Origin: Rhizorhabdus histidinilytica
GTDB lineage: Bacteria > Pseudomonadota > Alphaproteobacteria > Sphingomonadales > Sphingomonadaceae
Direction of reading: 5' to 3'
NCBI RefSeq assembly: GCF_900167915.1
Contig: NZ_FUYM01000001.1
Location: 620,001-684,000, forward strand
DNA: 64,000 nucleotides
Below the pieces are notes generated by a model. The model had not been told where the DNA came from and did no database searches. It saw nothing but the letters and a program-made list of their open reading frames with translations. Shown here piece by piece: positions 20,413-48,503 of the stretch. How positions within the stretch are numbered: the stretch's first letter is position 1; each line of letters starts with the position of its first letter. The translations under genes were made by a program, and so were the position numbers.

Positions 20413-20512
20413 CCTGTCTCTCCTCACCGGTCGCCGGGCGAGAAAAGCAGTCGCCTGCGGGCATGGACAGTCCGCCGGCCGATCCACCGCATCCGTGATG
20501 GGCGGCCTTCTC

Positions 20513-20539: not shown

Positions 20540-20572
20540 ATATGCGGCAAGGGCCACTATTCGGGAATGGTG

Positions 20573-22096: not shown

Positions 22097-22119
22097 GGCT
22101 GTTCCTTCGGTTCGGTCGG

Positions 22120-23853: not shown

Positions 23854-23923
23854 CTGTCCACTCCTCATGTCGCGCCAAGCCTATTCCCACGTCCGCCGCG
23901 CGACAAACGCGCGGCGCCAGCCT

Positions 23924-25033: not shown

Positions 25034-25038
25034 CGCCG

Positions 25039-27203: not shown

Positions 27204-27278
27204 CCCGTCCTCCATTATCTGGTGCGGGAAATTTACGCCGGGCCGGGCCGCCAATTGAACGGCGAATTGTTTAGGGTC

Positions 27279-27839: not shown

Positions 27840-29060
27840 TCAGGGCCAGACCAGTTCCAGCCGCAGCACCCCATTGACCATGCCGGTCGCCAGCACCGGC
27901 CGGGTGCCCGGCTTGATCCGGAAGTCGGGGATGCGGCTCAGCCATTCCTGCAGGAAGATGCGGATCTCGCGCCGGGCGAGCACCGCGCCGGGGCAGGCAT
28001 GGGCGCCGTTGCCGAAGGCGGCGTGGACCGGCTTCTCACGCGAGAAGTCCACCACCAGCGGATCGGGATTGATCCGGTCGTCGACGCCGACGAACAGGTT
28101 GGCGGGCAGGATGCGATCACCGGCGCGGAAGCTGACGCCCTTATAGTCGAAGTCGCTGGCGATGACGCGCGCGGTGTTGGCGAGGCCGTGGCGGCGGACC
28201 ATCTCCTCGATCGCGTTCTTGACGAAGGCGTCGTCGTCGAGCCGCTCGACGAGCTGGCGGCGCTGCTCGGGATTCTGGGCCAGGAAGCGGGCGATGAACG
28301 CGATCATGCCGGCCACCGTGTCGAGCCCGCCGAACAGGACGAGCGTGGCGTAGGAGGTCGCCTCGGCCTCGGAGATGCGCTCGCCGCCGATGTCGACGTT
28401 GACGAGCTTGCTGAGCAGATCGTTGCCCGGCATCTCGCGGCGCGCGCGGATCCAGGGGAGCAGATAGGCGCCCATGAGCTGCTGCGATCGGCCGCGTGTC
28501 TCGGCATCGCGCCCGCGCACCGAATCCTCGGCGAGGGCCAGCAGATAGGCCTTGTCGTCGAGCGGCAGCTCGACCAACTCGAGGAAGACGTGGATCGGCA
28601 GGACCTTGGCGAAATCCTCGACGAACTCGCACTCGCCGCGCGGCAGCAGCCGTTCCACCGCATCGATCGCAACCTGCCGTACCTTCGACTCCAGCTCGGA
28701 GACGATCGACGGCAGCAGCGCCTGCATCAGCGGGCGGCGATAGCGGGCATGCTCGGGCGGGTCCATCTCCAGCGGAATCTGGCGCGGCGCGTCCGGCATC
28801 GGCGGCAGCACGATATGCTGGTGCGAGAAGCGGTTATAGTCGCGCTGCATCTCGACGATGTCCTCGCCCCGCGTGGCGACCCAGTGGCCGCCATTGTGCG
28901 GCGTCCAGAAGATGTCGGGCGACGCCTGCTGGATGGCGCGATAGGCGGCCTGGATGTCCTCGGCGGCGCCGGGGATGTCGTAGAGGTCGAAATCGCGGAC
29001 CAGTTCGGCCGGGACATGCTCCGGCCGGGGGGCGAGCGTCCTTTCCATCACGTCTTGCAT
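27840..29060 (-). CDS. Cytochrome P450
   Basis: A 406-residue P450. Heme-ligand Cys356 is in FGNGAHACPGA, the I-helix carries FGGLDT at 243-248 with the acid-alcohol pair Asp247-Thr248, and ExxR is E286-R289. The sequence RYRRPLMQALLPS is the typical C-helix. GGAGGAG precedes the ATG. It is in the same run as an SDR and a ferredoxin and ahead of the MarR gene. Its general look is that of bacterial terpene- or camphor-hydroxylating P450s, which is an impression rather than a proven assignment. Confidence 0.93.
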   Translation of the reverse strand: MQDVMERTLAPRPEHVPAELVRDFDLYDIPGAAEDIQAAYRAIQQASPDIFWTPHNGGHWVATRGEDIVEMQRDYNRFSHQHIVLPPMPDAPRQIPLEMDPPEHARYRRPLMQALLPSIVSELESKVRQVAIDAVERLLPRGECEFVEDFAKVLPIHVFLELVELPLDDKAYLLALAEDSVRGRDAETRGRSQQLMGAYLLPWIRARREMPGNDLLSKLVNVDIGGERISEAEATSYATLVLFGGLDTVAGMIAFIARFLAQNPEQRRQLVERLDDDAFVKNAIEEMVRRHGLANTARVIASDFDYKGVSFRAGDRILPANLFVGVDDRINPDPLVVDFSREKPVHAAFGNGAHACPGAVLARREIRIFLQEWLSRIPDFRIKPGTRPVLATGMVNGVLRLELVWP

Positions 29061-29083: not shown

Positions 29084-30076
29084 TCAGGCGGCGGGAATGG
29101 CGGCCGCGTCGCGTTCGCGCGCGGCGGCGGCGACGGCGTTGAACTCGTCATAGACGGTCATCGGCCGATGCAGCGTGGTGGCGTCGCATATCCGGTCGAA
29201 CTGCTCGGCGACATCCTCCACGCTTGGCGCGTCGGAGCCTGCCGGGGAAATCCAGCCCTGGGTCGCCTGGATCAGCACCTGGGCATAGCGGCCGCCATTG
29301 GCGCTGAAGATGCCGTGGGTCGCCTGGCACCGCTCGCTGGCGAGGTAGAGGGCGAGGGGGGTGTTGAACGCCGGCAGCAGCCGGTCCTGCACCGCCGAAT
29401 AATCGGCCTCCTGCACCGACCGGGCGAAGTCCGGTATCTCCATGAAACCGTCGTCCATCTCGGCCATCAGCCGCGACTGGGCGGTCGGCATGAGCAGGTT
29501 GGACGTGATGCCATAGGCCGATCCCTCGATCGCGACGATATGGCTCAGCCCCATCAGCCCGCCCTTGGCGGCGGCATAGTTGGCCTGCCAGGCATGGCCG
29601 AACATCGCGCTGGCCGATCCGGTGAAGACGAAACGGCCATAGCCGTTGCGCCGCATGATCCGATAGGCGGGCTGGGCGACGTAGAAGGCGCCTTTCAGAT
29701 GGACGTCGACCAGCGCGTCGAGCCGGGCGTCGTCGATATCCTCGAAACGCGCGTTGCGCAGGAAGCCGGCATTGCTGATGACGATGTCGACCTTGCCGAA
29801 CGCCTCGACCGCGGCGGCGACGATCGCCTCGCCGCCGGCGCGGGTGGCGACGCTGTCGTAACTGGCGGCTGCCTTGCCGCCCGCGGCGCGGATCTCGTCC
29901 ACCACCGCGTCGGCGGCGTTGTGCGACGCGCCGAGGCCGGCGCCGCTGCCGCCCAGGTCGTTGACCAGCACCGCGCCGCCGCGCCGCGCGATCTCCAGCG
30001 CATAGTCGCGGCCGAGCCCGTTGCCGGCGCCGGTGATGACGGCGACGCGGCCGTCGAAGCGGATATCCCCGGCCAT
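29084..30076 (-). CDS. SDR family dehydrogenase (MFE-2-like)
   Basis: A 330-residue SDR with TGAGNGLG at 15-22, NDLGGSGAG after beta-2, SNAG at 101-104, Ser154 and YAAAK at 167-171. Its NDLGG signature matches the 17-beta-HSD type 4/MFE-2 group and the SDR at 715-1665. The start at 30076 has GGAGGA. It is three bases after the ferredoxin stop and 23 bp before the P450 gene, so the secondary alcohol made by one P450 is a plausible substrate. Confidence 0.87.
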   Translation of the reverse strand: MAGDIRFDGRVAVITGAGNGLGRDYALEIARRGGAVLVNDLGGSGAGLGASHNAADAVVDEIRAAGGKAAASYDSVATRAGGEAIVAAAVEAFGKVDIVISNAGFLRNARFEDIDDARLDALVDVHLKGAFYVAQPAYRIMRRNGYGRFVFTGSASAMFGHAWQANYAAAKGGLMGLSHIVAIEGSAYGITSNLLMPTAQSRLMAEMDDGFMEIPDFARSVQEADYSAVQDRLLPAFNTPLALYLASERCQATHGIFSANGGRYAQVLIQATQGWISPAGSDAPSVEDVAEQFDRICDATTLHRPMTVYDEFNAVAAAARERDAAAIPAA

Positions 30077-30079
30077 GGC

Positions 30080-30397
30080 TCAATCCTCCGGCGCGATGGC
30101 GACGCGCAGGCCGGCGAGGCCGTCGTCGATGGTGATCTGGCACGACAGGCGCGAGGTCTCGTCGCGATGGTCCGAGCTGTCGAGCAGGTCGCTCTCGTCC
30201 TCGCTCATCGGCGGTAGCTTGGCGAGGAAGGCGGGCTCCACCTTCACGTGGCAGGTTGCGCAGGAACAGCAGCCGCCGCACAGCGCCAGCAGCTCGTCGG
30301 CGCCGCCGTCGCGGATCACCTCCATCAGCGACAGGCCGTTGTCGGCCTCGAGGCTCAGTTCCTGACCGTCACGGGTGGTGACGAGGATGGTCGGCAT
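30080..30397 (-). CDS. [2Fe-2S] ferredoxin, putidaredoxin/adrenodoxin type
   Basis: A 105-residue ferredoxin. Cluster ligands Cys40, Cys46, Cys49 and Cys86 have exactly the spacing of putidaredoxin (C-x5-C-x2-C-x36-C). There are two extra Cys (43 and 44) in the loop. It lies 4 bp after one P450 gene and upstream of a second, so it should shuttle electrons to P450s. No ferredoxin reductase is present in the window, so a reductase elsewhere is implied. Confidence 0.95.
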
Positions 30398-30401
30398 GCG
30401 G

Positions 30402-31643
30402 TCAGTCTCCGAAACGGACGTAGAGATGCCTGGGTACACGCATCATCGAACCCTGGATCTGCGGAGGCGCCTTGTCCGGATCGAAGCGCAGCCCCGGCAG
30501 GTGATCGAGCGCGGCATGCAGCGCACGGGTCATCTCCACCCGCGCCAGATGCTGGCCGACGCAGATGTGCGGCCCGCGCGAGAAAGCGAAATGGGGCTTG
30601 CGATCGCGGAAGATGTCGAAGCGATCGGGATCGGCGTAGATCTCCGGATCACGGTTGGCGGCGCCCGCAACCACGTCCAGCAGCGACCCGGCCGGAATGG
30701 CGACGCCGGCCAGCTCGGTGTCGACCGCCGCCATCCGCATCTGCACCGCCACCGGCCCGTCCCAACGCAACGCCTCCTCGATCGCCTGCGGGATAAGCCC
30801 GCGGTCGGCGCGGATCGCCTCCATCTGGTCGGGATGTTCGAGCAGCGCGGTCAGCAGGATGCTGGTGCCGCGATAGGTGGTGTCGCCAGCCGCGTTCATG
30901 AGCTGGCGCAGGAAGGAGATCAGCACCTCGTGCGGCAGATATTCGCCGTCGACCTCGGTCAGCGCCAGCAAACTGACGAGATCTTCGCCCGGATCGCGCC
31001 GGCGCTCCTCGACCAGCGCGGTGAAATAGTCGCCGAGCTTGCGGCCCGCCTCGATCGCCTTCTCATGGTTCACATAGTCGGTCTGGCCGAGCGCGAGCCG
31101 CTGGAAGGTGTGGACGTCCTCCTCGGGCAGGGCGAGCTGGTGGTAGATGACCTCGAACGGATAGCGCAGCGTGAACTGCTCGATCAGGTCGGCGTGGCCG
31201 AGCGGCAGGAACTTGTCCATCAGCCCGTGGACCACGGGGTCGACGATCGTCTCGCCCCATTTCTTCACATATTGGGGCAGGAATATCTTCTGGAAGATCC
31301 GGCGCCAGCGGCCATGCTCCGGATTGTCCATGGTGCTGATGCTGCCCTGGCCGAAGGTGACGCCCAGGTTGAACTTGTAGCCCGCGTTGGAGAAGCGATC
31401 GGTATCGGTGAGCACCTCGTTCACCTCGCTCGATCCGACGACGGTGAACATCTTGCGGTCGGGGTAGAGCGCCGCGGGCAGGCCCATCAGCGGGCGATAG
31501 CCGCCCTCGATCACAGGCGCCTCGGCGCGCCAGCGCGCGATCAGCGGATAGGGATCGGCATGATCGCCGAAATTGATCTCGTCGGAATTGAACGGATCAT
31601 AGTTCGGATCGTCGAACTCCTGGATCCGGACGGCGCTCTCCAT
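30402..31643 (-). CDS. Cytochrome P450
   Basis: A 413-residue P450 with heme-ligand Cys361 in [12 protein letters not shown]-helix AAGDTT at 251-256 and ExxR E290-R293. It leads the P450/ferredoxin/SDR/P450/MarR run. Between its start and the TetR gene lies a palindrome that recurs at another promoter, so it is probably TetR-controlled. The closest resemblance is to soluble class I P450s with putidaredoxin-type partners, encoded here by the next gene. Confidence 0.93.
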
Positions 31644-31655: not shown

Positions 31656-31678
31656 TATATGAAGTGGTCACTACATAA
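31656..31678. promoter_or_regulatory. Putative TetR operator 1
   Basis: The imperfect palindrome TATGAAGTGGTCACTACATA lies 13 bp upstream of the P450 start and 20 bp below the TetR gene's 3' end. A 20-base site at 35157-35176 matches it at 16 positions. Symmetric half-sites AGTG and CACT flank a two-base centre. It is best read as the operator of the TetR protein encoded alongside. Confidence 0.65.
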
Positions 31679-31697: not shown

Positions 31698-32336
31698 TCA
31701 ATCGGAGCGGCCCCGCCACATCATATCCGCGATCATTTGCTCGAGCGCCGCGATCAGCGCCTCGCGGTCGGTGTGTGGCGGGAACAGCATCGGCTGGAAC
31801 AGCACCGCCGAGGCGATCATGCCGAAGCCCAGCCGCACCGCGATCGCGGTATCGGCGCGGGTCGCGCCGTCCTGGGCGGCATAGGTGGTCGATTTCTCGA
31901 AGAAATTGTCGAGGCCGCCGAAGGGCAGGGCGGGTTGTGCCCGGCCGTCGGCCGGCATCTGGAACAGCAGCGCGCGGAACATCTCCTGGTTCTGCTCGAA
32001 CAGGGTGTAGACGGCCCGGACGAAACGCCGCGCATCGGCGTCCCGGTTGGGGTCGCGCGGGTCGGGGTGGAGGGCGACGAAATCCTCCATCAGCCGGTTG
32101 AAAGGCGCCGTAACCACTTCGTCGAACAGGGTCGCCTTGTCGCCATAATAGCGGAACAGCAGGGTCTCGCTGACGTCGGCGAGACGGGCGATCTCCTTGG
32201 TCGTCGCGAAGGCATAGCCGCGCTCGGCGAACAGCTCGCGCGCCGCGGCGCGGATGCGCTCGACCACGTCCTCGCGGGTGCGGCGGCGGCGGCGGGTGCG
32301 GGGCTCGGGGGCGGCGTCGATCGCGGCGTTGCTCAT
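31698..32336 (-). CDS. TetR-family transcriptional regulator
   Basis: A 212-residue TetR protein. The DNA-binding domain at about residues 22-68 shows AARELFAERGYAFATTKEIARLADVS split around the helix-turn-helix, followed by LLFRYYGDK. The C-terminal ligand domain is not conserved, as usual. It sits between the GMC oxidase gene and the P450/ferredoxin run on the same strand. Two similar palindromes next to the P450 promoter and the 35.1-kb divergent promoter are candidate targets. Confidence 0.92.
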   Translation of the reverse strand: MSNAAIDAAPEPRTRRRRRTREDVVERIRAAARELFAERGYAFATTKEIARLADVSETLLFRYYGDKATLFDEVVTAPFNRLMEDFVALHPDPRDPNRDADARRFVRAVYTLFEQNQEMFRALLFQMPADGRAQPALPFGGLDNFFEKSTTYAAQDGATRADTAIAVRLGFGMIASAVLFQPMLFPPHTDREALIAALEQMIADMMWRGRSD

Positions 32337-32376: not shown

Positions 32377-33972
32377 CTAGCGGTTGCGTCCTTCGAGGAT
32401 CAGCGAAGCGGCGTGCCAGGCTGCGGCCATGATCGGGCCGTTGGTGTTGGCCGAAACCATGGTCGGCATGATCGAGCCGTCGACGACGCGTAGCCCGTCG
32501 ACGCCGCGCACGCGCAGCTTCTCATCGAGCACGGCATCGTCGAAATCGCCCATCCGGCAGGTCCCGCAGGCATGGTAGCCGGCCTGCCCCTGGCTGCGGA
32601 AGGCGGAGAGAATCTCCTCGTCGGTCCGCATCGAGCGGCTCGGCTCGCGCTCGCCGATCACCATCGGCGCGATCGCCGGCTGGTGCATCCATTCGCGGAT
32701 GTAGCGGTGCATCGCCACGGTGACAGCGCAGTCATAGGGATCGGTCAGATAGCCGGCGTGAATCTGCGCCGGCTGGTTCGGATCGGCCGATGCGATCCGT
32801 ACCCAGCCTTCGCTGCGCGACCGCAGCGGATAGCCGAACAACTGGACGCTGTGGGCGCGATCGACGACCATGTTGCCCTTGTCGTCAGGCATCGCCACCG
32901 CAGGCGAGAACAATATCTCGATGTCCGATGTCTCGGATTCCGGCAGCACCCTGGCGAAGGCGCCGACCGTGCCATAGGCCACCGCCATCATCCCCGATCG
33001 ATTGAGATAGTAGCGCAGGACGTTGGCGGCGAGGCGCAGGCCCCGAAGCTGGGGATTGTGGCTGTGCGGCACGCTGATGTCGAACTGCATCATCATCAGC
33101 CGATGCTCGAGCAGATGCTCGCCCACGCCGGGGCTGTCGACCACCGGGGCGATGCCGAGCGCCTGGAGATGCGCGGCATTGCCGACGCCCGAGCGTTGGA
33201 GGATCTGCGGCGACATTAGCGATCCCGCGGAAAGGATGACCTCGCCCTCCGCGTCGAAGCGCCGTGGCGCGCCGCCGACCGTCGCAGCGACGCCGATCGC
33301 GCGGCGGCCGTCGAACAGGATGCGGTCGACCGTGGCGCCGGTGACGACGCGCAGGTTGGGCCGCCCGCGCGCCTGCTTGAGGAAGGTCTGCGCCGTGCTC
33401 TGGCGGCGGCCCTTCCAGATGGTGCGGGTGGCGTAGCCGACGCCCTCCTGCCGGGGCCGGTTGAGATCCTCGACGCGGGGCAGGCCCATCTGCTCGCCGG
33501 CGGCGATGAACGCCTCGGTCAGCGGGGTCCGTTCGCGCTCGACGCTGATGCCGAGCGGGCCGCCGCCGCCGCGCACCTCGTCCTCGCCCAGTTCGTGCCG
33601 CTCGATCGCGCGGAAGGCCGCACCCATCGCGCTCCAGCCCCATCCCCTGGCGCCGAGCTTCTCCCAACCGTCATAATCCTCGGGCTGGCCCCGGAAATAC
33701 ATCATCCCGTTCACCGAGGAGGAGCCGCCGAGCATCTTGCCGCGGATCCAGGTCTCGGACGGCACGTCGTCATGCGCCTCGGTCTGGAAATACCAGACGT
33801 GGCGCGGATCGGTGTAGAGCTTGGCGACACCGCGCGGCATGTGGATGAAGGGGCTGCGGTCCTCGGGCCCCGCCTCCAGCAGCAGCACCCGGTTCGCCGG
33901 ATTGACGGACAGCCGATCGGCCAGGACGCAGCCGGCCGAGCCGGCGCCGACGATGATGTAATCCCAGCTCAC
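32377..33972 (-). CDS. GMC-family FAD-dependent alcohol oxidase/dehydrogenase
   Basis: A 531-residue GMC oxidoreductase. The FAD-binding IIVGAGSAGCVLADRL is at the N-terminus, the GMC signature around GKMLGGSSSVNGM, and a catalytic His in YHACGTCRM followed by MPTMVSANTNGP near the C-terminus. The start is GTG at 33972, which overlaps the upstream stop as GTGA, so translation is coupled. It should oxidise a primary or secondary alcohol, perhaps one released by the adjacent serine hydrolase. Confidence 0.92.
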   Translation of the reverse strand: MSWDYIIVGAGSAGCVLADRLSVNPANRVLLLEAGPEDRSPFIHMPRGVAKLYTDPRHVWYFQTEAHDDVPSETWIRGKMLGGSSSVNGMMYFRGQPEDYDGWEKLGARGWGWSAMGAAFRAIERHELGEDEVRGGGGPLGISVERERTPLTEAFIAAGEQMGLPRVEDLNRPRQEGVGYATRTIWKGRRQSTAQTFLKQARGRPNLRVVTGATVDRILFDGRRAIGVAATVGGAPRRFDAEGEVILSAGSLMSPQILQRSGVGNAAHLQALGIAPVVDSPGVGEHLLEHRLMMMQFDISVPHSHNPQLRGLRLAANVLRYYLNRSGMMAVAYGTVGAFARVLPESETSDIEILFSPAVAMPDDKGNMVVDRAHSVQLFGYPLRSRSEGWVRIASADPNQPAQIHAGYLTDPYDCAVTVAMHRYIREWMHQPAIAPMVIGEREPSRSMRTDEEILSAFRSQGQAGYHACGTCRMGDFDDAVLDEKLRVRGVDGLRVVDGSIMPTMVSANTNGPIMAAAWHAASLILEGRNR

Positions 33973-35111
33973 AGCGCGGCCCGGATCACATCGCCGATCA
34001 AGGTGCGGCTGTCCTGGTTGATCTCGATCGTGTCGAACATGCGGTTGTGGCAGAAGGCGACCGCGAGCTTGCGGTCGGGATCGGCCCAGCCGATCGATCC
34101 GCCCATGCCGGGATGACACAGCGCGCGCATGTTGCGCGGGCTGGAGACGGGCGGGGCCTCCGCGCCGCCCAGCCAGAATCCCGCCCAGCCGATCGGCACC
34201 TTCATGCCGAAGAATACCGGATCGGCATCGTCGAAATGCGGGCGCGGGCCGGCGAAGCTCGCCACCCGTTCCTCGGACAGCAGGCGGACGCCGCCGAGCT
34301 GCCCGCCATTAGCGAGCATCGCCCAGAAACGTGCCTCGCTGCGCGCGTTGAAGATGCCGCCCACCGCTGGGATGCAGGCGCGGCGGACATAAGGACGCTC
34401 GAACGGATCGGGCATCAGGTCGACGACGAGCGGCTGCGCCTCTCGCATCGCGTTGCCGTCGGGCATCACATAGACGGCGACGGCGTCGAGCCGGGCGATG
34501 CGCGGCTCGACCTCGGCGGGAATGCCGAACCACAGGTCGGTCGCGCCCAGCGGCTCGGCGATCTCCTCGCGGACGAACTGGCCGAACGGGCGCCGCTTGG
34601 GATCGGTGCGGCGGACCACCTCGCCGACCAGCCAGCCGAAGGTCATCGACTGGTAGGAGGAACGGCTGCCGGCTGGATAGGCGCCCGGCATCTCGGCAAT
34701 GCGGCCGCACATCCAGTCCCAGTTGGTCATCAGCTCGGGGGTGACGTCGGGCGGCATGCGCAGCACGCCGGAGACATGACCGAGAACGTGGCGAACAGTG
34801 ACGTCGCCCTTGCCGGCCTGTGCAAAGTCGGGCCAGTAAGTGGCTACAGGAGCATCATAATCGACCAGGCCTCGTTCGGCCTGGATATGGAGTGCCGTGG
34901 CCGTCACCGCCTTCGACACCGAATAGACGTTGAACAGGGTGTCGCCATCGACCGGTCGGCCGGTCTCGGGGTCGGCGATGCCCGCCCAGCAATCGACGAC
35001 CTGCTCCTCGCCGACCCAGGCCGCGACCTGCACGCCGATCTCGCGCCCGTCGGCGACGAGCGAATCGAGCGTGCGCTGCACCGCCTCGTTGACCTTGTTC
35101 GCCACCGCCAT
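33969..35111 (-). CDS. Serine hydrolase of the class C beta-lactamase/EstB esterase fold
   Basis: A 380-residue protein. The nucleophile motif S64-V-S-K67 sits in the expected context, and a Tyr motif YQSMTFGW is the second element. There is no signal peptide, so a cytoplasmic esterase is more likely than an antibiotic-degrading lactamase. GGGAGAGG precedes the ATG at 35111. It shares a 100-bp divergent promoter region with the crotonase at 35212 and is translationally coupled to the GMC oxidase. Confidence 0.9.
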   Translation of the reverse strand: MAVANKVNEAVQRTLDSLVADGREIGVQVAAWVGEEQVVDCWAGIADPETGRPVDGDTLFNVYSVSKAVTATALHIQAERGLVDYDAPVATYWPDFAQAGKGDVTVRHVLGHVSGVLRMPPDVTPELMTNWDWMCGRIAEMPGAYPAGSRSSYQSMTFGWLVGEVVRRTDPKRRPFGQFVREEIAEPLGATDLWFGIPAEVEPRIARLDAVAVYVMPDGNAMREAQPLVVDLMPDPFERPYVRRACIPAVGGIFNARSEARFWAMLANGGQLGGVRLLSEERVASFAGPRPHFDDADPVFFGMKVPIGWAGFWLGGAEAPPVSSPRNMRALCHPGMGGSIGWADPDRKLAVAFCHNRMFDTIEINQDSRTLIGDVIRAAL

Positions 35112-35156
35112 ATCGCGCCTCTCCCTCTGGCCTCGTCTCTTCCGTTCGCCCCACTT

Positions 35157-35195
35157 ATCAAGTACGCACTACATAGTATAGTGTGCGGCGGAGCA
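35157..35195. promoter_or_regulatory. Putative TetR operator 2 in a divergent promoter, plus a second dyad
   Basis: TATCAAGTACGCACTACATA at 35157-35176 matches the site beside the TetR/P450 promoter at 16 of 20 positions. Immediately overlapping is CACTA-N7-TAGTG, a perfect interrupted dyad. The element lies between the divergent serine hydrolase (35111) and crotonase (35212) starts, so one regulator could control both directions. Confidence 0.62.
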
Positions 35196-35211: not shown

Positions 35212-35958
35212 ATGGGCGGAAAATACGAGACAATCGCGCTGCGGCGCGAGGGCGACATCCTCGAGCTGCGAATCCATCACAAGGGTGAAGCCGCGCGCTG
35301 GGGACTGTGGGGCGGGCTGCATCGCGAACTGGGGCTGGCCTTCGCCGAGATTGCCTCCGATCCCGATCTCCGCGCGTTGATCCTCACCGGCACCGGCGAC
35401 AGATTCTGTGCCGAATTCGACATGGAAGGGGAGATGCCGCCGCCCATGTCCCCGGCGGTCTGGGACGTGATCTTCCGCGAGGGTCGGAGCCTGCTCAACA
35501 ACCTGCTCGCGATCGAGGTGCCGGTCATCGCCGCGGTCAATGGTCCCGCCTTCATCCATGCCGAGCTGGCGGTGCTGGCCGATATCGTGCTCGCGTCCGA
35601 CACGGCCGTGTTCGCGGACAAGGCGCACGGCGTGGCCGGGGTGGTGCCCGGCGACGGCGTCCATACGATCTGGCCGATGCTGCTCGGGCCCAACCGCGGC
35701 CGCTATTTCCTGCTGACCGGTCAGGAAATCGGTGCGCAGGAAGCGCTGGCGCTGGGTATCGTCGGCGAGGTGCTGCCGCGCGACGCGCTGCTCGATCGTG
35801 CGTGGGAGCATGCCCGCGCGATCGCCGCGCGCCCACCGCTGGCGATGCGCTACACCCGGATCGCCCTGACCACCCGACTGCGCGAGCAGGTGGCCCGCGA
35901 GCTGGGGCCGGGCCTGATGCTCGAAGGCATGGCGGTACTGGCGGGGCAGGGCAACTGA
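35212..35958 (+). CDS. Crotonase-fold beta-diketone hydrolase, 6-oxocamphor hydrolase-like
   Basis: A 248-residue crotonase-fold protein that closely resembles Rhodococcus 6-oxocamphor hydrolase as I remember that sequence: LLNNLL(A)IEVPVIAAVNGP, DIVLAS and NRGRYFLLTGQE are shared. The residues I recall as active-site residues there are all present: Trp30, His37, His116, His139, Asp148 and Glu238. It should hydrolyse a carbon-carbon bond of a cyclic 1,3-diketone to give a keto acid. AAGGGAGAGG precedes the start. It leads the + strand operon with OYE, TauD and Mo-enzyme genes. Confidence 0.87.
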   Translation: MGGKYETIALRREGDILELRIHHKGEAARWGLWGGLHRELGLAFAEIASDPDLRALILTGTGDRFCAEFDMEGEMPPPMSPAVWDVIFREGRSLLNNLLAIEVPVIAAVNGPAFIHAELAVLADIVLASDTAVFADKAHGVAGVVPGDGVHTIWPMLLGPNRGRYFLLTGQEIGAQEALALGIVGEVLPRDALLDRAWEHARAIAARPPLAMRYTRIALTTRLREQVARELGPGLMLEGMAVLAGQGN

Positions 35959-36058
35959 TTATTCTGGAATATTGAAAAGTATCTTCAAAAACGAAGGGAT
36001 TATATCGTCGGGGCGACGGGCTTATCCTCCACCCCAAGACATAAGGAGGGAGAGGAGC

Positions 36059-38047
36059 TTGGACTTCCCACATCTGTTCGCGCCGTTCGCGATTCGCGAC
36101 CTGCGCCTGAAGAACCGCATCGTCATGGCGCCGATGGAGAGCCATCTCGGCAATGCCGACGGTTCGGTCTCGAAGGAGGCGATCGCCTATTATCGCGAGC
36201 GAGCGCTGGGCGGTGTCGGCATGGTCGTGGTCGAATATACCTGCGTCGACGGGCAGGAGGGTTTCAGCTCGATGGCGCCGCAGCTGCGCCTCGATTCCCC
36301 TTTCTACCGCTCAGGCCATGGCAAGCTGGCGGCGGCGATCCAGTCGGCCGGGGCGCGGGCTTGCGTCCAGCTCAGCCACGCCGGCCGCCAGTCGCGCGAA
36401 TCGGTGCTGGGGCGCCAGCCCGTCGCTCCCTCGGCGGTGCCGCTGTCGTCGCTTTATCTGAACGCGGTGCCGCGCGCACTGGAAGCGGACGAGATAACCC
36501 GCATCGTCCGGCGCTACGCCGATGCCGCCGCGCTCGCCGCGCAGGTCGGTTATGACGCGGTGATGCTCCATGGGGCGCACGGCTATCTGCTCCAGCAATT
36601 CCTCTCCCCCCTGGTCAACCGGCGCGACGACGAATGGGGCGGCGATTTCGAGCGACGGCTGCGCTTTCCGCTGGAGGTGGTGAAAGCGGTCCGGGCCGCG
36701 ATCGGCAACATGCCGCTGCTCTACCGCATGTCGGTCTCCGACTTCATCGATGGCGGGCTGACGATCGAGGACAGCGAGCGGATCGCGCCGCGCCTGTGCG
36801 AGGCGGGCGTCGATGCGATCGACATCTCCTGTGGTTCGCTCGACCGGGTCGATGTGATCGTCGAGCCGATGTCGATCGAGGAGGGCTGGCGCCTGCCGAT
36901 GGCGCGGCGCATCCGCGCGGCGACCGGCAAGCCGGTGATCTGCGCGGGGGTGATCCGCCGGCCGGAGATGGCCGAAGCGGCCATCGAGGCCGGCGATACC
37001 GACATGATCTCGCTCGGCCGCGCGCTGCTCGCCGATCCGCTGTGGCCGAACAAGGCGCGGATGGGGCGGGCCCAGGACATCCGCCCCTGCACGTCGTGCA
37101 ACTGGTGCATCAAGGAAACCGGCGGCAATCGCGGGGTGAGTTGCGCCGAGAATCCGCGCTGCGGCCATGAGACCGACCCGCCGATCGACGCCTTCGGGCG
37201 CGGCCTGCGCGCAGTGGTGGTCGGCGCGGGGCCGGGCGGGATCGCCGCCGCGCTGCTGCTCGATCAGGCCGGCTTCGCGGTGACGCTGTTCGAGAAGCGC
37301 GGCTCGGCGGGCGGCAACCTGATCACCTCGGCGACGCCTCCGAACAAGGAGAAGCTGTTCTGGTATCACGACTTCCTCCAGCGGCGGCTGGCGGCGAGCG
37401 GGGTCGACCTGCGGCTCGGCACCGAGGCGACCGCGGAGAGGGTCGGCGACGAGCGGCCCGACGTGGTGGTGGTCGCAGGCGGATCGCGCCTCGCACCGCT
37501 GGACCTGGGCGGGGCGGGCGGGCTGCCGGTCCACCCCGCCTTCGCGCTGCTGCTGGGCGACGTCGAGCTGCCGCCGTCCTCGCCCGAGCGCCCGATCCTG
37601 ATCTACGGCGGCGGCGAGACCGGCACCGAGACTGCCGAGCATCTCGCCAAGCAGGGCCACCATGTCCTGCTGGCCACCCGCTCCGACGCAGCGATGCTCG
37701 CCCGCAACGCCGAGCCGCTCTACCGCATCCACCTGCTCCAGCGGCTGCGCGCCAACGCCGCGATTGCCGTCGCCGACCATAGCCTGCTGACCGCGATCGA
37801 AGGCGACCACGTCCTGCTCGAAAGCCGGGGCGAGACACGGCGCCAGCCGGCGGCGGCGGTGCTGCTGGCGCATGGGTTGGTGCCCGATACGACCATCGCC
37901 GAAGCGCTGCTCGACCTGCCGGTGCCGGTGGTGCCGATCGGCGATGCGGTGCGGGTCGGCCGCATCGGCGAAGCGGTGCGCGACGCCTATCGCTGCGTCC
38001 AGGATCTACGAAGGACCATATATCAACCGGAGGCCATAGCATGCTGA
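36059..38047 (+). CDS. Old-yellow-enzyme/FAD fusion oxidoreductase (2,4-dienoyl-CoA reductase/TMADH-like)
   Basis: A 662-residue two-domain flavoprotein. The FMN TIM barrel covers residues 1 to about 335, then iron-sulfur ligands C344, C347, C350 and C362, spaced as in trimethylamine dehydrogenase. The FAD/NAD(P) domain begins with VVVGAGPGGIAAAL. The start is TTG at 36059, with AAGGAGGGAGAGG just upstream, and it matches the family N-terminus. It should reduce an enone or dienoyl-CoA. It overlaps the TauD-type gene by 7 bp. Confidence 0.92.
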   Translation: MDFPHLFAPFAIRDLRLKNRIVMAPMESHLGNADGSVSKEAIAYYRERALGGVGMVVVEYTCVDGQEGFSSMAPQLRLDSPFYRSGHGKLAAAIQSAGARACVQLSHAGRQSRESVLGRQPVAPSAVPLSSLYLNAVPRALEADEITRIVRRYADAAALAAQVGYDAVMLHGAHGYLLQQFLSPLVNRRDDEWGGDFERRLRFPLEVVKAVRAAIGNMPLLYRMSVSDFIDGGLTIEDSERIAPRLCEAGVDAIDISCGSLDRVDVIVEPMSIEEGWRLPMARRIRAATGKPVICAGVIRRPEMAEAAIEAGDTDMISLGRALLADPLWPNKARMGRAQDIRPCTSCNWCIKETGGNRGVSCAENPRCGHETDPPIDAFGRGLRAVVVGAGPGGIAAALLLDQAGFAVTLFEKRGSAGGNLITSATPPNKEKLFWYHDFLQRRLAASGVDLRLGTEATAERVGDERPDVVVVAGGSRLAPLDLGGAGGLPVHPAFALLLGDVELPPSSPERPILIYGGGETGTETAEHLAKQGHHVLLATRSDAAMLARNAEPLYRIHLLQRLRANAAIAVADHSLLTAIEGDHVLLESRGETRRQPAAAVLLAHGLVPDTTIAEALLDLPVPVVPIGDAVRVGRIGEAVRDAYRCVQDLRRTIYQPEAIAC

Positions 38048-39018
38048 TCGAAGACACCAGGGCCGAGGGCCTGACCATCCGCCCGCTGGCGCCGGGCTTC
38101 GGCGCCGAGATCGTCGGCGTCGACCTGAGCCGGCCGATCGACACCGCGACCGAGGAGGCGATCCGCGCCGCCTGGATCGAGCATGGCATATTGCTGTTCC
38201 GCGGCGAGGACCAGGACGACGCGGCGCAGATGCGGCTGAGCGCGATCTTCGGCGAGATGGAGCCCGCCGCCACCGCCGACATGAACGATCCCAACAACAA
38301 GTTCATGATGACGCTGGCCTATGATCCGGACGACAAGGCGCCGCGTTTCCAGCAGCACTACAATGTCGGCGGGATCGATCGCGCCGGCTGGCTCGGCTGG
38401 CATTGGGACCAGGCCTTCATGCCGACGATCGTACGCGGCGCGGTGCTGCGGATGGAGATGCCTTCGCCCGAAATGGGCGAGACCGGCTTCATCGACGCGG
38501 TCGGCGCGTGGGACCGGCTGCCCGACGATCTGAAAGCGCGGATCGAGGGGCTCGAGGTCGTCTATCTGTTCAACCCCGATTTCGTCTCGGGCCAATATGG
38601 CTTTCCCGAGGACATCCGCGCGCTGCCGCGCGAGCGGCCGTCGAAGGAGCCGTCCTACGACTTCCCGCCGGTGGTCCATCCGATGGTGATCACCCAGGTC
38701 GAGACCGGCCGGAAGGTGCTCAAGCTCTCGCCGATGCACGCGCGCTACATCCTCGGCATGGACGCGGCCGAGAGCGACGCGCTGCTCAAGGAGGTGGCCG
38801 CCCACCTCGTCAATCCGGCCCATGCCTATTTCCATGACTGGCAGAAGAACGACATGGTCGTCTGGGACAATTGGCGGGTGATCCACGGCGCCAACGGCGT
38901 GCCGCTCCACTGCGCCCGCCGCGCGCGCCGCACCACGATCATGGGTGACTATAAAGTCGGCCGCTACCTCGACCCGACGCTCGACCGCGATCGCAAGGTG
39001 AAGCGGCTGGTCGACTGA
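38041..39018 (+). CDS. TauD/TfdA-family 2-oxoglutarate/Fe(II) dioxygenase
   Basis: A 325-residue non-heme iron dioxygenase. The metal triad is His121-x-Asp123 in WHWDQAF and His281 in NWRVIHGAN; the 2-oxoglutarate-binding Arg is probably in ARRARRTTI near 295. CGGAGG precedes the ATG, which lies inside the end of the OYE gene. Family members hydroxylate taurine, phenoxyacetates or alkyl sulfates, releasing a group through an unstable hemiacetal. Its partner genes suggest use on a pathway ether, sulfonate or alicyclic acid, unspecified. Confidence 0.92.
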   Translation: MLIEDTRAEGLTIRPLAPGFGAEIVGVDLSRPIDTATEEAIRAAWIEHGILLFRGEDQDDAAQMRLSAIFGEMEPAATADMNDPNNKFMMTLAYDPDDKAPRFQQHYNVGGIDRAGWLGWHWDQAFMPTIVRGAVLRMEMPSPEMGETGFIDAVGAWDRLPDDLKARIEGLEVVYLFNPDFVSGQYGFPEDIRALPRERPSKEPSYDFPPVVHPMVITQVETGRKVLKLSPMHARYILGMDAAESDALLKEVAAHLVNPAHAYFHDWQKNDMVVWDNWRVIHGANGVPLHCARRARRTTIMGDYKVGRYLDPTLDRDRKVKRLVD

Positions 39019-39073: not shown

Positions 39074-41260
39074 ATGCGCGAGACGCGGACCAGCCTGTGC
39101 CGGTTGTGCACGGCCTATTGCCCGATCATCGTCACGGTGGAGGAGGGGCGGGCCGTCGCCGTTGCCGGCAACCCGGAGGCCCCGCTCTATGGCGGCTATA
39201 TCTGCCCCAAGGCGCGCGCGCTGCCCGAGCAGCATTATGGCCCGTCGCGGCTGACCCGGCCGCTCCGGCGGCGGGCGGACGGCGGCCATGATCCGATCGC
39301 GTCGGGCCAGGCGCTCGACGAGATCGCCGCGCGGCTCGGCGCGATCGTCGACCACCATGGCCCGCGTTCGGTGGCGGTCTATGTCGGCATGGGCAGCGTG
39401 CCCTTCATCGCCAGCTACGCGATCGCGGCCGGCTGGCTACGCGCGCTGGGATCGCCCATGTTCTTCACCGCCGGGTCGATCGACAAGCCCGGCATCCTGA
39501 TCGCGCTGGCCATGCACGGCATGTGGCAGGCCGGGCAGCCGCCGGTGGATACGGCTGACGCCTGGCTGTTCGTCGGGATCAATCCGGTGATCAGCAAGTC
39601 GCCCGGCTTTCCCGGCCAGAATCCGGGCCTGTACCTCAAGCGGCTGGTCGACCGGGGCGCCAAGCTGATCGTCATCGACCCGCGCCGCACCGAGACCGCG
39701 AAGCGCGCCCATATCCATCTTCAGCCGCGTCCCGGCGAGGATCCGACGCTGCTCGCGGGCCTGATCCACGTCATCCTGGAGGAAAAGCTGTTCGACCAGG
39801 CGTTCGTCACGGCGAATGCGCAGGGGCTGGAGGCGTTGCGCGCGGCCGTGGCGCCCTTCACCCCGGCCTATGTCGCCGCGCGCGCCGACGTGCCTGAGGC
39901 CGACCTGATCGAGGCGGCGCGGGTCTTCGCGCGCGCCGGCCATTCGGGGGTCAGTTGCGGCACCGGGCCGAGCTTCGCCACCCATTCGACGCTCACCGAA
40001 TATCTCGCCCTGTGCCTCACCACCCTTTGCGGGCGTTGGGCTCGCGCCGGCGAGCGGCTGACCAAGCCCAATGTGCTGCTGCCCGGCTTCGAGGCGCGGG
40101 CGCAGCCCTGGCCGGCCTTCCAGGGCTGGGGCTTCGAGCCCCGGCTGCGCGTCCGCGGCCTCGGCGGGTGCGTCAGCGGCCTTTCCGCCGCCGCGCTGGC
40201 CGACGAGATATTGCTGCCGGGCGAGGGCAAGGTCCGCGCGCTGGTGGTTTGCGGCGGCAATCCGATGATGGCCTGGCCCGACCAGATGAAGGCTCATGCG
40301 GCGCTCAACGATCTCGACCTGCTCGTCACCATCGACACGGAGATGACGGCGACCGCCGAGCTGTCCGATTATGTGATCGCGCCGAAGCTGACGCTCGAGA
40401 CACCGATGACCACCTACATGCCCGAGAGCGTCAAATATTACGGCACCACGCGTGGCTTCGACCAGCCTTATGCTGCCTATACGCCGGCTATCGTCGATCC
40501 GCCCTCCGGCCATGACCTGATCGAGGATTGGGAATTCTTCTGGGGCCTGGCGGAAAGGCTGGGCTTCCCGATCCCGGTCACCACCTATTTCGGCAATGGT
40601 CCCCAGGCCGAGCATGCGCCGGTCACCTTCACCCTCGATCCGAAGGGGCCGAAGCCGACCACCGATCAACTGATCGCGATGGCGCATCGATCCTCGCGCG
40701 TGCCGCTGGAGCAGGTGAAGCAGAATCCCAACGGCCAGATCTTCGAGAGCGACCAGCGGGTGGCGCCGCGCGCGCCGGGCAATGACGACCGGCTGGAACT
40801 GGCCGCCGCGCCGATGATCGACGAGCTGGCCGCCGTGCTGGCCGAGGACAATCGCGCCATCGAGGCGGACTATCCCTTCCGGCTGCTGCCGCGCCGTCTC
40901 AACAATATCCTGAATTCCTTCGGGCGTCGTTATGCGCAGCTCGCGCGGAAGCCCTATAATCCGGCGTTCATGAACCCCGAGGACATGGCGGCGCTGGGCC
41001 TCGCCGAGGGAGACGCGATCCGCATCACCTCCCCGCATGGCGAGATCGTCGGCATCGCCGAGGGCGAGGCGGCGTTGCGGCCCGGCACCGTCTCGATGGC
41101 GCACGGCTTCGGCCGCAATCCGGGCGAGGAGGACCCACGTGGCAGCGGCGCCAATACCGGCCGGCTGATGTCCGCCGAGGTCGACTATGATCCCATTACC
41201 GGCATCCCGCGCATGGGTGCGCTGCCGGTGCGGATCGCACCCTTCATGGTTCAGGGATAG
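39074..41260 (+). CDS. Molybdopterin-dependent oxidoreductase (formate dehydrogenase/nitrate reductase superfamily)
   Basis: A 728-residue catalytic subunit of the DMSO-reductase superfamily. The N-terminal [4Fe-4S] ligands are C9, C12, C16 and C44. GINP and IDPRRTETA belong to the bis-MGD domains, and the C-terminal GDAIRITSPHG is the molydopterin-dinucleotide-binding beta barrel. No Tat signal is visible, so it is cytoplasmic. No small or membrane subunit is adjacent. GGGAGAGGGGAG precedes the ATG. The physiological substrate is unknown; the operon suggests a role in the same alicyclic pathway. Confidence 0.9.
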   Translation: MRETRTSLCRLCTAYCPIIVTVEEGRAVAVAGNPEAPLYGGYICPKARALPEQHYGPSRLTRPLRRRADGGHDPIASGQALDEIAARLGAIVDHHGPRSVAVYVGMGSVPFIASYAIAAGWLRALGSPMFFTAGSIDKPGILIALAMHGMWQAGQPPVDTADAWLFVGINPVISKSPGFPGQNPGLYLKRLVDRGAKLIVIDPRRTETAKRAHIHLQPRPGEDPTLLAGLIHVILEEKLFDQAFVTANAQGLEALRAAVAPFTPAYVAARADVPEADLIEAARVFARAGHSGVSCGTGPSFATHSTLTEYLALCLTTLCGRWARAGERLTKPNVLLPGFEARAQPWPAFQGWGFEPRLRVRGLGGCVSGLSAAALADEILLPGEGKVRALVVCGGNPMMAWPDQMKAHAALNDLDLLVTIDTEMTATAELSDYVIAPKLTLETPMTTYMPESVKYYGTTRGFDQPYAAYTPAIVDPPSGHDLIEDWEFFWGLAERLGFPIPVTTYFGNGPQAEHAPVTFTLDPKGPKPTTDQLIAMAHRSSRVPLEQVKQNPNGQIFESDQRVAPRAPGNDDRLELAAAPMIDELAAVLAEDNRAIEADYPFRLLPRRLNNILNSFGRRYAQLARKPYNPAFMNPEDMAALGLAEGDAIRITSPHGEIVGIAEGEAALRPGTVSMAHGFGRNPGEEDPRGSGANTGRLMSAEVDYDPITGIPRMGALPVRIAPFMVQG

Positions 41261-41273: not shown

Positions 41274-41300
41274 CGATGCCGGGCAAGTGCCCCGGCATCG
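41274..41300 (+). terminator. Strong GC-rich hairpin after the molybdoenzyme gene
   Basis: CGATGCCGGG and CCCGGCATCG form a perfect 10-bp stem around a 7-base loop, 13 bases after the stop at 41260. There is no T-run after it, so it may act as a Rho-assisted terminator, an mRNA-stabilising structure or a regulatory hairpin before the alpha/beta hydrolase gene. Confidence 0.5.
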
Positions 41301-41415
41301 GCAAGCGGCCCGCCCATCTCATCGAATGGGTGATGAGGTGGGCGCCGGCCTTCAGCTCGGCCGCCGGATGAGGCACGGTCCGCTCCTATCCGAAGGAGAG
41401 GCGGGGAGCGCGACT

Positions 41416-42402
41416 ATGCAGCGGATCGAGCGGCGGATCGACGTGAGCGAGGCAGCGGGGCTGGGCGAACCGGTCGAGATGGCGGTGAGCATCTTCCTGC
41501 CCGATCCGGCGGACGTGCCGGAACGACCCGTTGCGATCTTCGCGGTGCCGGGCGGCGGCTATTCGCGGGCCTATTATTATCTGAGCTTCGCCAGTCATGA
41601 AGGCTATGACGAGGCCGCCTGGCATGTCGCGCGCGGCACCATCCATGTCGCTATCGACCATGTGGGAGTGGGCGAGAGCAGCATCCCCGACCTGTCGCGG
41701 ATCAGTTTCCAGACGCTGGCCGCGACCCATGACAGCTGCGTCCGCAAGGTCGCCGCGATGATCGAGCGGGGCAGTCTCGCACCCGGCTTCCCGGCTTGTC
41801 CGGGCTTGTTCCGCGTCGGCATGGGCCAGTCGATGGGCGGCGGCGTCACCATCCTCGCGCAGGGGCGCTTCGCCACCTTCGACGCGATCGCGCCCTGCGG
41901 CGTCAGCGCGATCCACACCGCGTTGCCGCAGCGCAGCGCCGAGGAGTTCGAACTCGGCAAGCGCCGCTTCGCCCAGGTCAGCGTCGGCGACGCCAGCCAG
42001 AGCCACCTGACCACCAGCCATGAGGGCGTGGACTATGTCTATCCCTTTCACTGGGAGGACGTGCCGGCCGACATATTGGAAGCCGACATGGCGGGCGGCT
42101 ATCCGATCCGCCAGACGGCGCCGGCGTTCGGCAGCCTGACCATCCCGCATTGCGCGGTGCAGATGATGACGCCGGGCTGCTTCGCCGAGGATGCGGCGCG
42201 GATCGAGGTGCCGGTGCTGGTCGCGGTCGGCGAGCGCGACACCTGTCCCGATCCGCGCGCCGAGCCTTCGGCCTATCGCGCGTCACCCGACATCGGCGTG
42301 TTCATCGTGCCGCGCATGGCCCACATGCACAATTTCGCCTCGACCCGCGAAATGTTGTGGCAGCGCCTCCATGGCTGGAGCCGGATGCTGGCGGCGGCTT
42401 AG
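41416..42402 (+). CDS. Alpha/beta hydrolase
   Basis: A 328-residue alpha/beta hydrolase. The nucleophile elbow is GMGQSMGGG with Ser139, the oxyanion strand IFAVPGGGYS, an acid probably in VGERDTCPD and the catalytic His in MAHMHNF near the C-terminus. The start at 41416 has GGGGAG eight bases upstream; earlier ATGs give poor leaders. It ends the + strand operon, 155 bp after the molybdoenzyme. The TAG stop lies in the end of a repeat element. It is probably an esterase, thioesterase or C-C hydrolase. Confidence 0.83.
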   Translation: MQRIERRIDVSEAAGLGEPVEMAVSIFLPDPADVPERPVAIFAVPGGGYSRAYYYLSFASHEGYDEAAWHVARGTIHVAIDHVGVGESSIPDLSRISFQTLAATHDSCVRKVAAMIERGSLAPGFPACPGLFRVGMGQSMGGGVTILAQGRFATFDAIAPCGVSAIHTALPQRSAEEFELGKRRFAQVSVGDASQSHLTTSHEGVDYVYPFHWEDVPADILEADMAGGYPIRQTAPAFGSLTIPHCAVQMMTPGCFAEDAARIEVPVLVAVGERDTCPDPRAEPSAYRASPDIGVFIVPRMAHMHNFASTREMLWQRLHGWSRMLAAA

Positions 42403-42597
42403 AATATCGGGCGCTTCACCTGACCCACTCATCCTGAGGAGGGACTGAGCCTGGCGAAGGCCCATCTCGAAGGATATTTCCAGCCTCGAACGTCCCTTCG
42501 AGACAGCATTTCGCCTACGCTCAATGCTTCCTCAGGGCGAGCGGGGGCTTTTGAGTCAGACTCTCAGGATGGGCGGAACGGGAGCGTCTCGTTCTAG
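42399..42597. repeat. Palindromic intergenic element supplying both flanking TAG stop codons, copy 3
   Basis: A 199-bp element that starts with TTAG and ends with CTAG. It contains CATCCTGAGGAGGGACTGAG facing CCTTCGAGACAGCATTTCGC and a TCCTCAGGGCGAGCGG end. The left TAG is the stop codon of the alpha/beta hydrolase, and the right CTAG holds the stop of the convergent DUF1214 gene. It is clearly related to copies 1a, 1b and 2 and can fold into a long hairpin between two convergent operons. Confidence 0.85.
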
Positions 42598-43847
42598 ACG
42601 GTCGTCCGCCGGTCCCATTCGCGCTGCCGCCGGGCGATGCGCGCGGCGCGTTCGGCGGCGTCGATGCGGGTTGTATCGGCGGGGATATGCCGGTCGATCT
42701 CGGCGAAGGGCACGATGTCGAGCCAGTGACGCGGCCCCTCGCGGACCTGGGTGGTGGGGATACCCTGCCAGCGGATCATCGGCAGCAGGTCCCTGAGCCC
42801 GCCGGTGTCGACCCAGTTGGCGATCCCCGGATCGCGCGCGGAAACGACCAGGCTGATCGTGCCGTCGGCATCATGCTCGGCCTGGGCGGCGGTGAGGCCC
42901 GACTGGATGCGGTGCGCGTCGATCGAACGGTACCACCACATCGCCATCTGGAAGCTGTTGTAGCAGGCGCCCGCCGGATCGAAGCGGACGATCGCGGCCT
43001 GGTCGTCCTCCAGATGGAAATGGCCGAGGCTGCTCGCCTGGGTGACGAGGCCACCATAGCCGGCGACCCGGATAGGCTGGACCATTGTGTTGACCGGCTT
43101 GCCCGCCGAGAGGCGGAAGAACCAGTAATAGAGAGGCACGTCCTCGCGCATCCGGCGCAGCGCCTCGTCGAGCCGCTGTTCGAGGTCCAGCGGGGCGGCG
43201 TCGTCAAGCCGCTCGATGCTGAGGTCGAGCGGGGTCTCGCGCCCCCAGTCCATCATGCTGTCGCGGATGAACAGGAATTTGGTGCGCGGCGTGCTGGTCA
43301 GGTGATTGGACCGGCCATCGGCAGGTTCGCCATCGATGCTGATCGTGAAGCTACCGTCCTCGTCGAGGGCGATGCCGGGCAGTTCAAGCGTCTGGGCGGT
43401 GACCGACGTCCCCCAATTCTCGACCAGGGTGAAGGAGGCATGGGCGGGGCGGGCGTCAAGGATGCGCCCGCTGACCCGATAGCGGCCCCCCGGCGCGATG
43501 CCGGCCAAACGGTAGCAATTGTCGGGATTGTCGCCGCCCATGCGCGCGTCCGGCACGTCGCCGCCCTGCCAGCGATAGCCGGGCATGAAGTTGCGGACGA
43601 TGCGCGGCGCGGCCGGATCGATCGCCGTCGCCTTGAACAGATAGTTGGTGACCCAGCCGTCCATCGCGCTGTCGAAGCTGTCGAGCAGGCCGTCGGGGAT
43701 GTCGGTGCCGTGGCCGACGCGCCAGAGCTGCGCGGCATGGTCGCGCGCGGCGCGGGTCTGCGGCAACGCCCACATGTGCCGTACTTCCTCCTCGGCCGCG
43801 AACTGGCCGGCATTGGCGATCGGATTGGGCGCGATCGGATCGGTCAT
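42594..43847 (-). CDS. DUF1214 domain protein
   Basis: A 417-residue DUF1214 protein with signature RDPGIANWVDTGG. GRYRVSGRI and similar strands occupy the N-terminal half, and a C-terminal AARIARRQREWDRR is charged. It is homologous to the proteins at 5645 and 19240. The start at 43847 overlaps the sulfotransferase stop by ATGA, so the two are co-translated. The convergent end lies in a palindromic repeat. Molecular function is unknown. Confidence 0.82.
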   Translation of the reverse strand: MTDPIAPNPIANAGQFAAEEEVRHMWALPQTRAARDHAAQLWRVGHGTDIPDGLLDSFDSAMDGWVTNYLFKATAIDPAAPRIVRNFMPGYRWQGGDVPDARMGGDNPDNCYRLAGIAPGGRYRVSGRILDARPAHASFTLVENWGTSVTAQTLELPGIALDEDGSFTISIDGEPADGRSNHLTSTPRTKFLFIRDSMMDWGRETPLDLSIERLDDAAPLDLEQRLDEALRRMREDVPLYYWFFRLSAGKPVNTMVQPIRVAGYGGLVTQASSLGHFHLEDDQAAIVRFDPAGACYNSFQMAMWWYRSIDAHRIQSGLTAAQAEHDADGTISLVVSARDPGIANWVDTGGLRDLLPMIRWQGIPTTQVREGPRHWLDIVPFAEIDRHIPADTTRIDAAERAARIARRQREWDRRTTV

Positions 43848-45055: not shown

Positions 45056-45221
45056 CGACGGGCGTCCTCTCATCCTCGGCCGGACCGGCGCCGGCCGTCG
45101 ACGATTTCGTAGGATGGTTCGCCAGGTTTCTCAATTGTCGCAGCGGCGCCATCGCATATGTGAATGACGTAGCGATATTCTCAATGGAATGGCCGTGCGG
45201 AGAAGGGCGGTGGGAATATGA

Positions 45222-48367: not shown

Positions 48368-48503
48368 TGGATACCTCGAACAATATGGCCATCCCATGAC
48401 GCCAGCCCTGGCGGGGCGCAAGCGGGGCCCGGTTCCCATCATCAATGCGATGGAGCGGGGCGCTGGTTTGACACGCCGGAGCCCTGGTGATGCTATAGTT
48501 TGC

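Follow-up and report, generated by a model that had tools for sequence, protein, structure and literature searches.

The window, by which we mean the whole stretch of 64,000 nucleotides of the soil-type bacterium Rhizorhabdus histidinilytica analyzed here, contains a hydrolase gene on the plus strand that is followed by several genes of the same orientation. On the other side of a divergent promoter, the leftward gene order is EstA-type esterase, GMC oxidoreductase, TetR-type regulator, P450c, ferredoxin, SDR, P450b, MarR-type regulator and P450a. The features are as follows, with positions counted in the window; OCH denotes 6-oxocamphor hydrolase, and ABDH the beta-diketone hydrolase of Anabaena.

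25908-27254, minus strand: third cytochrome P450 (P450a)
27279-27812, minus strand: MarR-family regulator
27840-29060, minus strand: CYP101-like cytochrome P450 (P450b)
29084-30076, minus strand: SDR oxidoreductase
30080-30439, minus strand: 2Fe-2S ferredoxin with the putidaredoxin cysteine pattern Cx5Cx2C
30402-31643, minus strand: cytochrome P450 (P450c), containing AAGDT
31658-31677: second copy of an operator-like palindrome, TATGAAGTGGTCACTACATA, upstream of P450c
31698-32336, minus strand: TetR-family regulator, candidate operator binder
32377-34119, minus strand: GMC flavoprotein oxidoreductase, choline-dehydrogenase-like, with HxxGTCxM
33969-35111, minus strand: EstA/class C beta-lactamase-fold serine hydrolase with SxxK, whose closest relatives of known structure are carboxylesterases and fenoxaprop-ethyl hydrolase
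35156-35175: operator-like palindrome, TATCAAGTACGCACTACATA, in the divergent promoter between the EstA-type hydrolase and the OCH-family gene
35212-35958, plus strand: predicted CoA-independent C-C hydrolase of the OCH/ABDH family (crotonase fold), 248 aa, assigned from PDB matches, tree and residue alignment
35972-38047, plus strand: OYE/2,4-dienoyl-CoA-reductase-type flavoenzyme, start uncertain (TTG at 35972 or near 36059)
38041-39018, plus strand: TauD/TfdA Fe(II)/2-oxoglutarate dioxygenase, with HxD and distal His
39074-41260, plus strand: Mo-bisMGD oxidoreductase with an N-terminal 4Fe-4S motif
41287-42402, plus strand: putative alpha/beta hydrolase, a weak match under the Pfam cut-off

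The GMC oxidoreductase, the esterase, the P450s, the ferredoxin and the TauD-type protein all have intact catalytic motifs. A preliminary description of this DNA had placed the hydrolase at a divergent promoter shared with a serine hydrolase and a GMC oxidase and had pointed to a P450/ferredoxin system nearby, and both arrangements were found: the EstA/class C-type hydrolase and GMC genes are divergent from the hydrolase gene, with P450s and a 2Fe-2S ferredoxin close by. The true start of the GMC gene probably lies inside its open frame, because homology starts only at residue 50, and the OYE-type gene may start either at the TTG 13 bp past the hydrolase gene or at a better-spaced position about 100 bp further. 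To the left of the P450 genes (19240-25887) lie genes for a DUF1214 protein, an amidohydrolase, a SnoaL-like protein, an epoxide hydrolase and a predicted metal-dependent hydrolase.

The frame of the hydrolase is open and intact, has coding-type codon composition, and its ATG is directly preceded, a few bases upstream, by a good ribosome-binding site, GGGAGAGG. When the PDB was searched with phmmer, the best match was OCH (1o8u, E 1.4e-67; 1szo, 3.4e-66), ABDH (2j5g and 2j5s) followed at E about 4e-66, and the next crotonase appeared only at 1.9e-22, more than 40 orders of magnitude worse. In these alignments the identity is 51% to OCH (120/237) and 49% to ABDH (116/236). A maximum-likelihood tree split the OCH/ABDH family, including the hydrolase, from generic crotonases encoded by the same genome, with support of 100/99. 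The proposal that the protein is 6-oxocamphor hydrolase-like has thus been upheld at the family level, in that it groups with OCH and ABDH and not with enoyl-CoA hydratases, whereas the accompanying view that long stretches are near-identical to the Rhodococcus enzyme has to be withdrawn, since at 51% overall near-identity is limited to short blocks, among them LLNNLL.IEVPVIAAVNGP and RGRYFLLTGQE. Inside the family the hydrolase clusters with homologues from genome G175 and Sphingobium chungbukense (96/76), on a branch separate from both the ABDH clade and the OCH clade, the latter including a Rhodococcus plasmid homologue, and therefore the substrate preference of neither OCH nor ABDH can be transferred to it. 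The OCH family is rare. With strict thresholds, members turned up in 15 of the 299 genomes examined from the bacterial family, in 5 of 398 from the phylum and in 6 of 14 from the genus.

The alignment of active-site residues leads in the same direction as the tree. H37, H116, E118, D136, H139, D148, H151 and E238 of the hydrolase correspond to H45, H122, E124, D142, H145, D154, H157 and E244 of OCH and are all identical, so that the five His, Asp and Glu positions given in the preliminary description (37, 116, 139, 148 and 238) stand; the H122-x-Glu124 element of OCH is matched by H116-A-E118, and 1szo is seen in the alignment to be the H122A variant of OCH. Five of these residues (H37, H116, H139, D148 and E238) also align with H43, H121, H144, D153 and E243 of ABDH, whose catalytic residues have been given as H43, H144, D153 and E243 (PMC3584854), corresponding to H37, H139, D148 and E238 here. 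The sixth residue named in advance, Trp30, does align with OCH Trp40, but this equivalence is only probable: in the W40-H45 loop the window clade has WGLWGGLH against WTSTAH in OCH, with two extra residues and a second Trp, W33, as the alternative; ABDH has Phe at this position. Over 34 rows of the OCH family there is hardly any variation at H116, E118, D136, H139 and D148, and only three rows lack E238. Seven generic crotonases encoded elsewhere in the genome do not have these residues as a set. An AlphaFold2 model built from two sequences had a pLDDT of 45, too poor for a fold search or superposition.

These data bear directly on the possibility that the protein is a CoA-dependent crotonase (a hydratase, an isomerase or a CoA-ester ring-opener like EchA20) merely resembling OCH. 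Pfam assigns it only to ECH_1, NCBIfam models match below their cut-offs, the region around the gene has a CoA ligase and abundant CoA-handling genes, and steroid catabolism does have crotonase ring hydrolases, as exemplified by EchA20 (ScdY), which hydrolyses steroid ring D and is encoded in a catabolic cluster (PMC6678751). We nevertheless judge this explanation improbable, because no CoA-dependent crotonase in the PDB comes anywhere near as close as OCH and ABDH, and because the His/Asp/Glu set specific to OCH and ABDH is complete here and lacking in the seven generic crotonases compared.

Another check is to examine which neighbors have been kept with the hydrolase in other genomes. The whole block is present in G115 at 81-96% and in G175 at 92-99%, in the latter without the Mo gene. 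Sphingobium chungbukense DJ77 retains the hydrolase together with the left block, with little change in gene order and 57-86% identity (SDR 72%, moved; MarR 58%; P450b 79%; ferredoxin 73%; P450c 80%; TetR 57%; GMC 75%; EstA-type esterase, EstB, 76-86%; OCH-family hydrolase 69%), and the right block is missing. On a plasmid of Paraburkholderia sprentiae, P450c (60%), GMC (49%), OCH (51%) and EstA (56%) lie contiguously, in this order, on one strand, near a CYP101-like P450 (50%), an SDR, a ferredoxin and a flavin reductase. The distant genome G440 has P450c (61%), GMC (50%), OCH (55%) and the EstA-type esterase EstB (57%) contiguously and also possesses an SDR (53%), a CYP101-like P450 (45%) and a ferredoxin (41%). 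The conserved partners of the hydrolase are therefore the P450/ferredoxin/GMC/esterase set across the divergent promoter, and the fact that P450c, GMC, OCH and esterase have been kept together despite different gene orders argues for a functional link. No published description of a P450-GMC-hydrolase-esterase gene set was found in the literature searched.

The two palindromes give a second type of information. Using a pattern built from the two sites themselves and allowing at most two mismatches, a scan of the 5.47-Mb genome gave two hits and no more, both in the cluster, and the pair appeared in none of 100 shuffles. G175 and G115 have conserved copies at both positions, and the divergent site of S. 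chungbukense is a perfect palindrome, CTATCAAGTGTGTGCTTGATAG. The placement of the sites links the hydrolase with the genes on the P450/esterase side, and the most economical reading is that one regulator probably governs both transcription units, the TetR-type protein whose gene, at 31698-32336, lies between the two sites being the candidate. The motif was searched for in G440 and not found, which limits the regulatory link to the Sphingomonadaceae lineage.

The genes to the right of the hydrolase were the partners originally proposed, as an operon headed by the hydrolase and containing OYE, TauD and Mo-enzyme genes. These genes are indeed present and follow on the plus strand, and the operon itself is plausible though unproven; what did not hold is their weight as partners, since this is not the conserved side and the Mo gene is missing in G175. 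One could suppose that OYE, TauD and the Mo enzyme are the functional partners and that the P450/GMC side is a separate pathway, a view to which the shared strand, the close spacing, the OYE-type genes near several ABDH-clade relatives and a related Mo enzyme located directly 5' of an OCH-family gene in Novosphingobium pentaromativorans US6-1 (40% over 654 aa) all lend something; from this last adjacency, the pairing of the Mo gene with the hydrolase is maybe beyond chance. We regard this supposition as unlikely, however, because the trio is not beside the hydrolase in S. chungbukense, P. sprentiae or G440, where P450c, GMC and EstB have been kept, because G175, a relative with 96% identity, has a cluster that is syntenic except for the missing Mo gene, because the operator ties the hydrolase to the P450/esterase side, and because the US6-1 relative has no equivalents of H122 and W40. 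OYE and TauD genes downstream of the hydrolase were found only within its genus, and they are lineage-specific additions. In US6-1 (plasmid pLA3, L125 14553-17279) the Mo-enzyme gene is followed by an OCH-family gene lacking H122, E124 and W40 equivalents, which possibly represents a functionally different subgroup.

Taking the residue alignment, the gene conservation and the operator together, we think it likely that the product of 35212-35958 is a CoA-independent retro-Claisenase of the OCH/ABDH type, this activity being putative, and that it belongs to one regulon with the P450/GMC/esterase set. The members of this regulon would be the hydrolase, two P450s, the ferredoxin, the SDR, the GMC oxidoreductase and the EstA-type esterase, and a TetR-type regulator, probably that of 31698-32336, would bind the two operators. 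The retro-Claisen mechanism of OCH and ABDH is a published precedent, and by this precedent and the residue alignment, the substrate would be a cyclic 1,3-diketone, probably one that cannot enolise, held through its carbonyls by H37 and H116 with W30 or W33; water activated by the H139/D148 pair (H145/D154 in OCH) and E238 would attack one of these carbonyls, and the bond between the two ketones would then be cleaved to give an open-chain keto acid. As for the steps around it, whose order we infer, P450c or P450b with the ferredoxin would hydroxylate beta to an existing ketone, the GMC or SDR enzyme would oxidize the hydroxyl to the diketone, the hydrolase would open the ring, and a CoA ligase, acyl-CoA dehydrogenases and thiolases would carry the keto acid through beta-oxidation, while the esterase may serve to free an esterified substrate or to open a lactone. 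The logic of hydroxylation, oxidation to a diketone and C-C cleavage outlined in the preliminary description has gained support here from the conservation of the P450, GMC, hydrolase and esterase genes across lineages and from the genome-unique operator.

We next consider the substrate, for which the wider region should be taken into account. In addition to the genes listed above, the window contains the following.

3319-4662, minus strand: Rieske oxygenase alpha subunit, 54% identical to its counterpart in the Paraburkholderia cluster
13366-15614, plus strand: E1 alpha, E1 beta and lipoyl-domain protein of the 2-oxoacid-dehydrogenase type
46031-47158 and 47168-48574, minus strand: two acyl-CoA dehydrogenases that have counterparts in the clusters of Paraburkholderia and G440

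About 7.5-9 kb to the left of the window, beside a Rieske oxygenase gene, there is a gene for a KstD-like (3-ketosteroid-delta-1-dehydrogenase) protein that scores 877 bits against the NCBIfam cut-off of 789 (C24:610866-612521; L128 10866-12521). The Paraburkholderia plasmid and G440 have similar company of KstD, Rieske and acyl-CoA-dehydrogenase types, and the E1 alpha, E1 beta and lipoyl genes are kept in the wider cluster of all the module-bearing genomes checked. These three genes are 67-75% identical in the clusters of Azospirillum, Paraburkholderia, G440 and other sphingomonads. The window belongs to a larger catabolic region, and the KstD-like, Rieske and acyl-CoA dehydrogenase surroundings suggest an alicyclic or polycyclic terpenoid or a steroid-like ketone as the substrate. 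KstD-like proteins accept other ring ketones too, and the Rieske proteins gave no match to the KshA model, and therefore we do not claim a steroid substrate. No specific link to the cluster was found in the literature on tomatidine catabolism.

P450b has 163 of 396 residues (41%) in common with P450cam and retains the catalytic residues D251, T252 and C357; this identity lies above the 40% threshold for CYP101 members, the heme and acid-alcohol motifs are intact, and P450b is assigned to CYP101. Of the residues in P450cam, however, Y96, F87, F98 and D297 are replaced by P, V, Q and T, respectively, and Tyr96 with its bulky neighbors has been reported to mark the camphor-oxidising CYP101s and to be absent from the ionone-oxidising ones (PMC9655578). 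A true 6-oxocamphor hydrolase, acting after a CYP101 has hydroxylated camphor and an SDR or GMC enzyme has produced 6-oxocamphor (bornane-2,6-dione), and yielding campholinic acid, is thus very unlikely in spite of the identity to OCH with its catalytic set kept and the presence of a CYP101-like P450 and a putidaredoxin-like ferredoxin, because P450b has Pro in place of Tyr96, the hydrolase stands outside the OCH clade and the wider region is of the KstD/Rieske/acyl-CoA-dehydrogenase type. Returning to the putative retro-Claisenase, we tentatively propose, as a possibility rather than an expectation, that the P450-GMC pair makes a polycyclic (steroid- or di/triterpenoid-like) 1,3-diketone, that the OCH-type enzyme opens this free diketone through CoA-independent retro-Claisen cleavage, and that the P450-GMC-hydrolase-esterase set has spread among plant- and soil-associated Proteobacteria. 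To our knowledge, CoA-independent retro-Claisen C-C cleavage has not been described for polycyclic steroid- or terpenoid-like diketones.

The locus can be compared with four known systems. With OCH (1o8u/1szo) the hydrolase shares 51% identity over 237 residues, the eight identical His, Asp and Glu residues listed above and the gene logic of a P450 followed by an oxidase, but it differs in the two-residue insertion and extra Trp of the W40-H45 loop, in its separate branch and in its GMC/EstA/CYP101 context, and its substrate is probably not 6-oxocamphor. With ABDH (alr4455, 2j5g/2j5s) it shares 49% identity and the residues equivalent to H43, H144, D153 and E243, but ABDH has Phe where OCH and the hydrolase have Trp, and its branch and neighbors are others. 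EchA20 (ScdY), likened here by description, also opens a ring by hydrolysis with a crotonase in a catabolic cluster, but it acts on CoA thioesters, whereas the present hydrolase is predicted to be CoA-independent. The P450cam-putidaredoxin system (CYP101A1; CYP101B/C/D of Novosphingobium) has in common a CYP101-like P450 and a 2Fe-2S ferredoxin, but the CYP101-like P450 of the cluster has lost the camphor-contact residues, and the P450cam pathway proceeds by Baeyer-Villiger lactonisation with no hydrolase (PMC4097962).

The enzyme type is already known, and the hydrolase adds a member to the OCH/ABDH family; the new part is the gene set recurring in unrelated bacteria. Few OCH-family enzymes known to us have been characterized, and a natural role has been established for essentially one, and the conserved set with its shared operator makes it possible to search by experiment for a second natural substrate. 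The hydrolase is also a candidate biocatalyst for desymmetrising cyclic diketones, and the two-site operator and two natural losses should ease expression and growth tests.

These losses were found as follows. In G1228 (L107 13380-13520) the P450b-Fdx-P450c-GMC-EstB block is intact and both operators are present, and the hydrolase gene is reduced to its first codons, an apparent deletion when judged against S. chungbukense. In G115, a relative of the same genus (L028 11573-12406), the gene is split by an insertion of 833 bp with transposase-like sequence and inverted terminal ends, which by our own reading is of the IS5 type. The losses indicate that the hydrolase was probably ancestral in the lineage and has now been lost in places; together with Azospirillum B510, which like G1228 carries the P450-GMC-esterase set without the hydrolase, they also indicate that the hydrolase is dispensable in some strains.

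When the neighbors of 28 OCH-family loci were compared, as a control, with those of 20 loci encoding generic crotonases in the R. histidinilytica genome itself, P450 genes were found at 9/28 against 3/20, GMC genes at 6/28 against 1/20 and OYE genes at 6/28 against 2/20. No strong family-wide neighbor rule was seen across the 28 loci, and since P450 and GMC genes are only modestly commoner near OCH-family genes, the case for linkage rests on the specific conserved set. Two further observations on neighboring genes can be mentioned. The region 42594-45073 of the window encodes an uncharacterised protein paired with a sulfotransferase-like protein, and a similar pair adjoins an OCH-family gene in G679 (L063 6132-8593). 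In S. chungbukense, three more CYP101-like P450 genes, 42-48% identical to P450b, lie just to the right of the hydrolase gene (L043 10802-20155).
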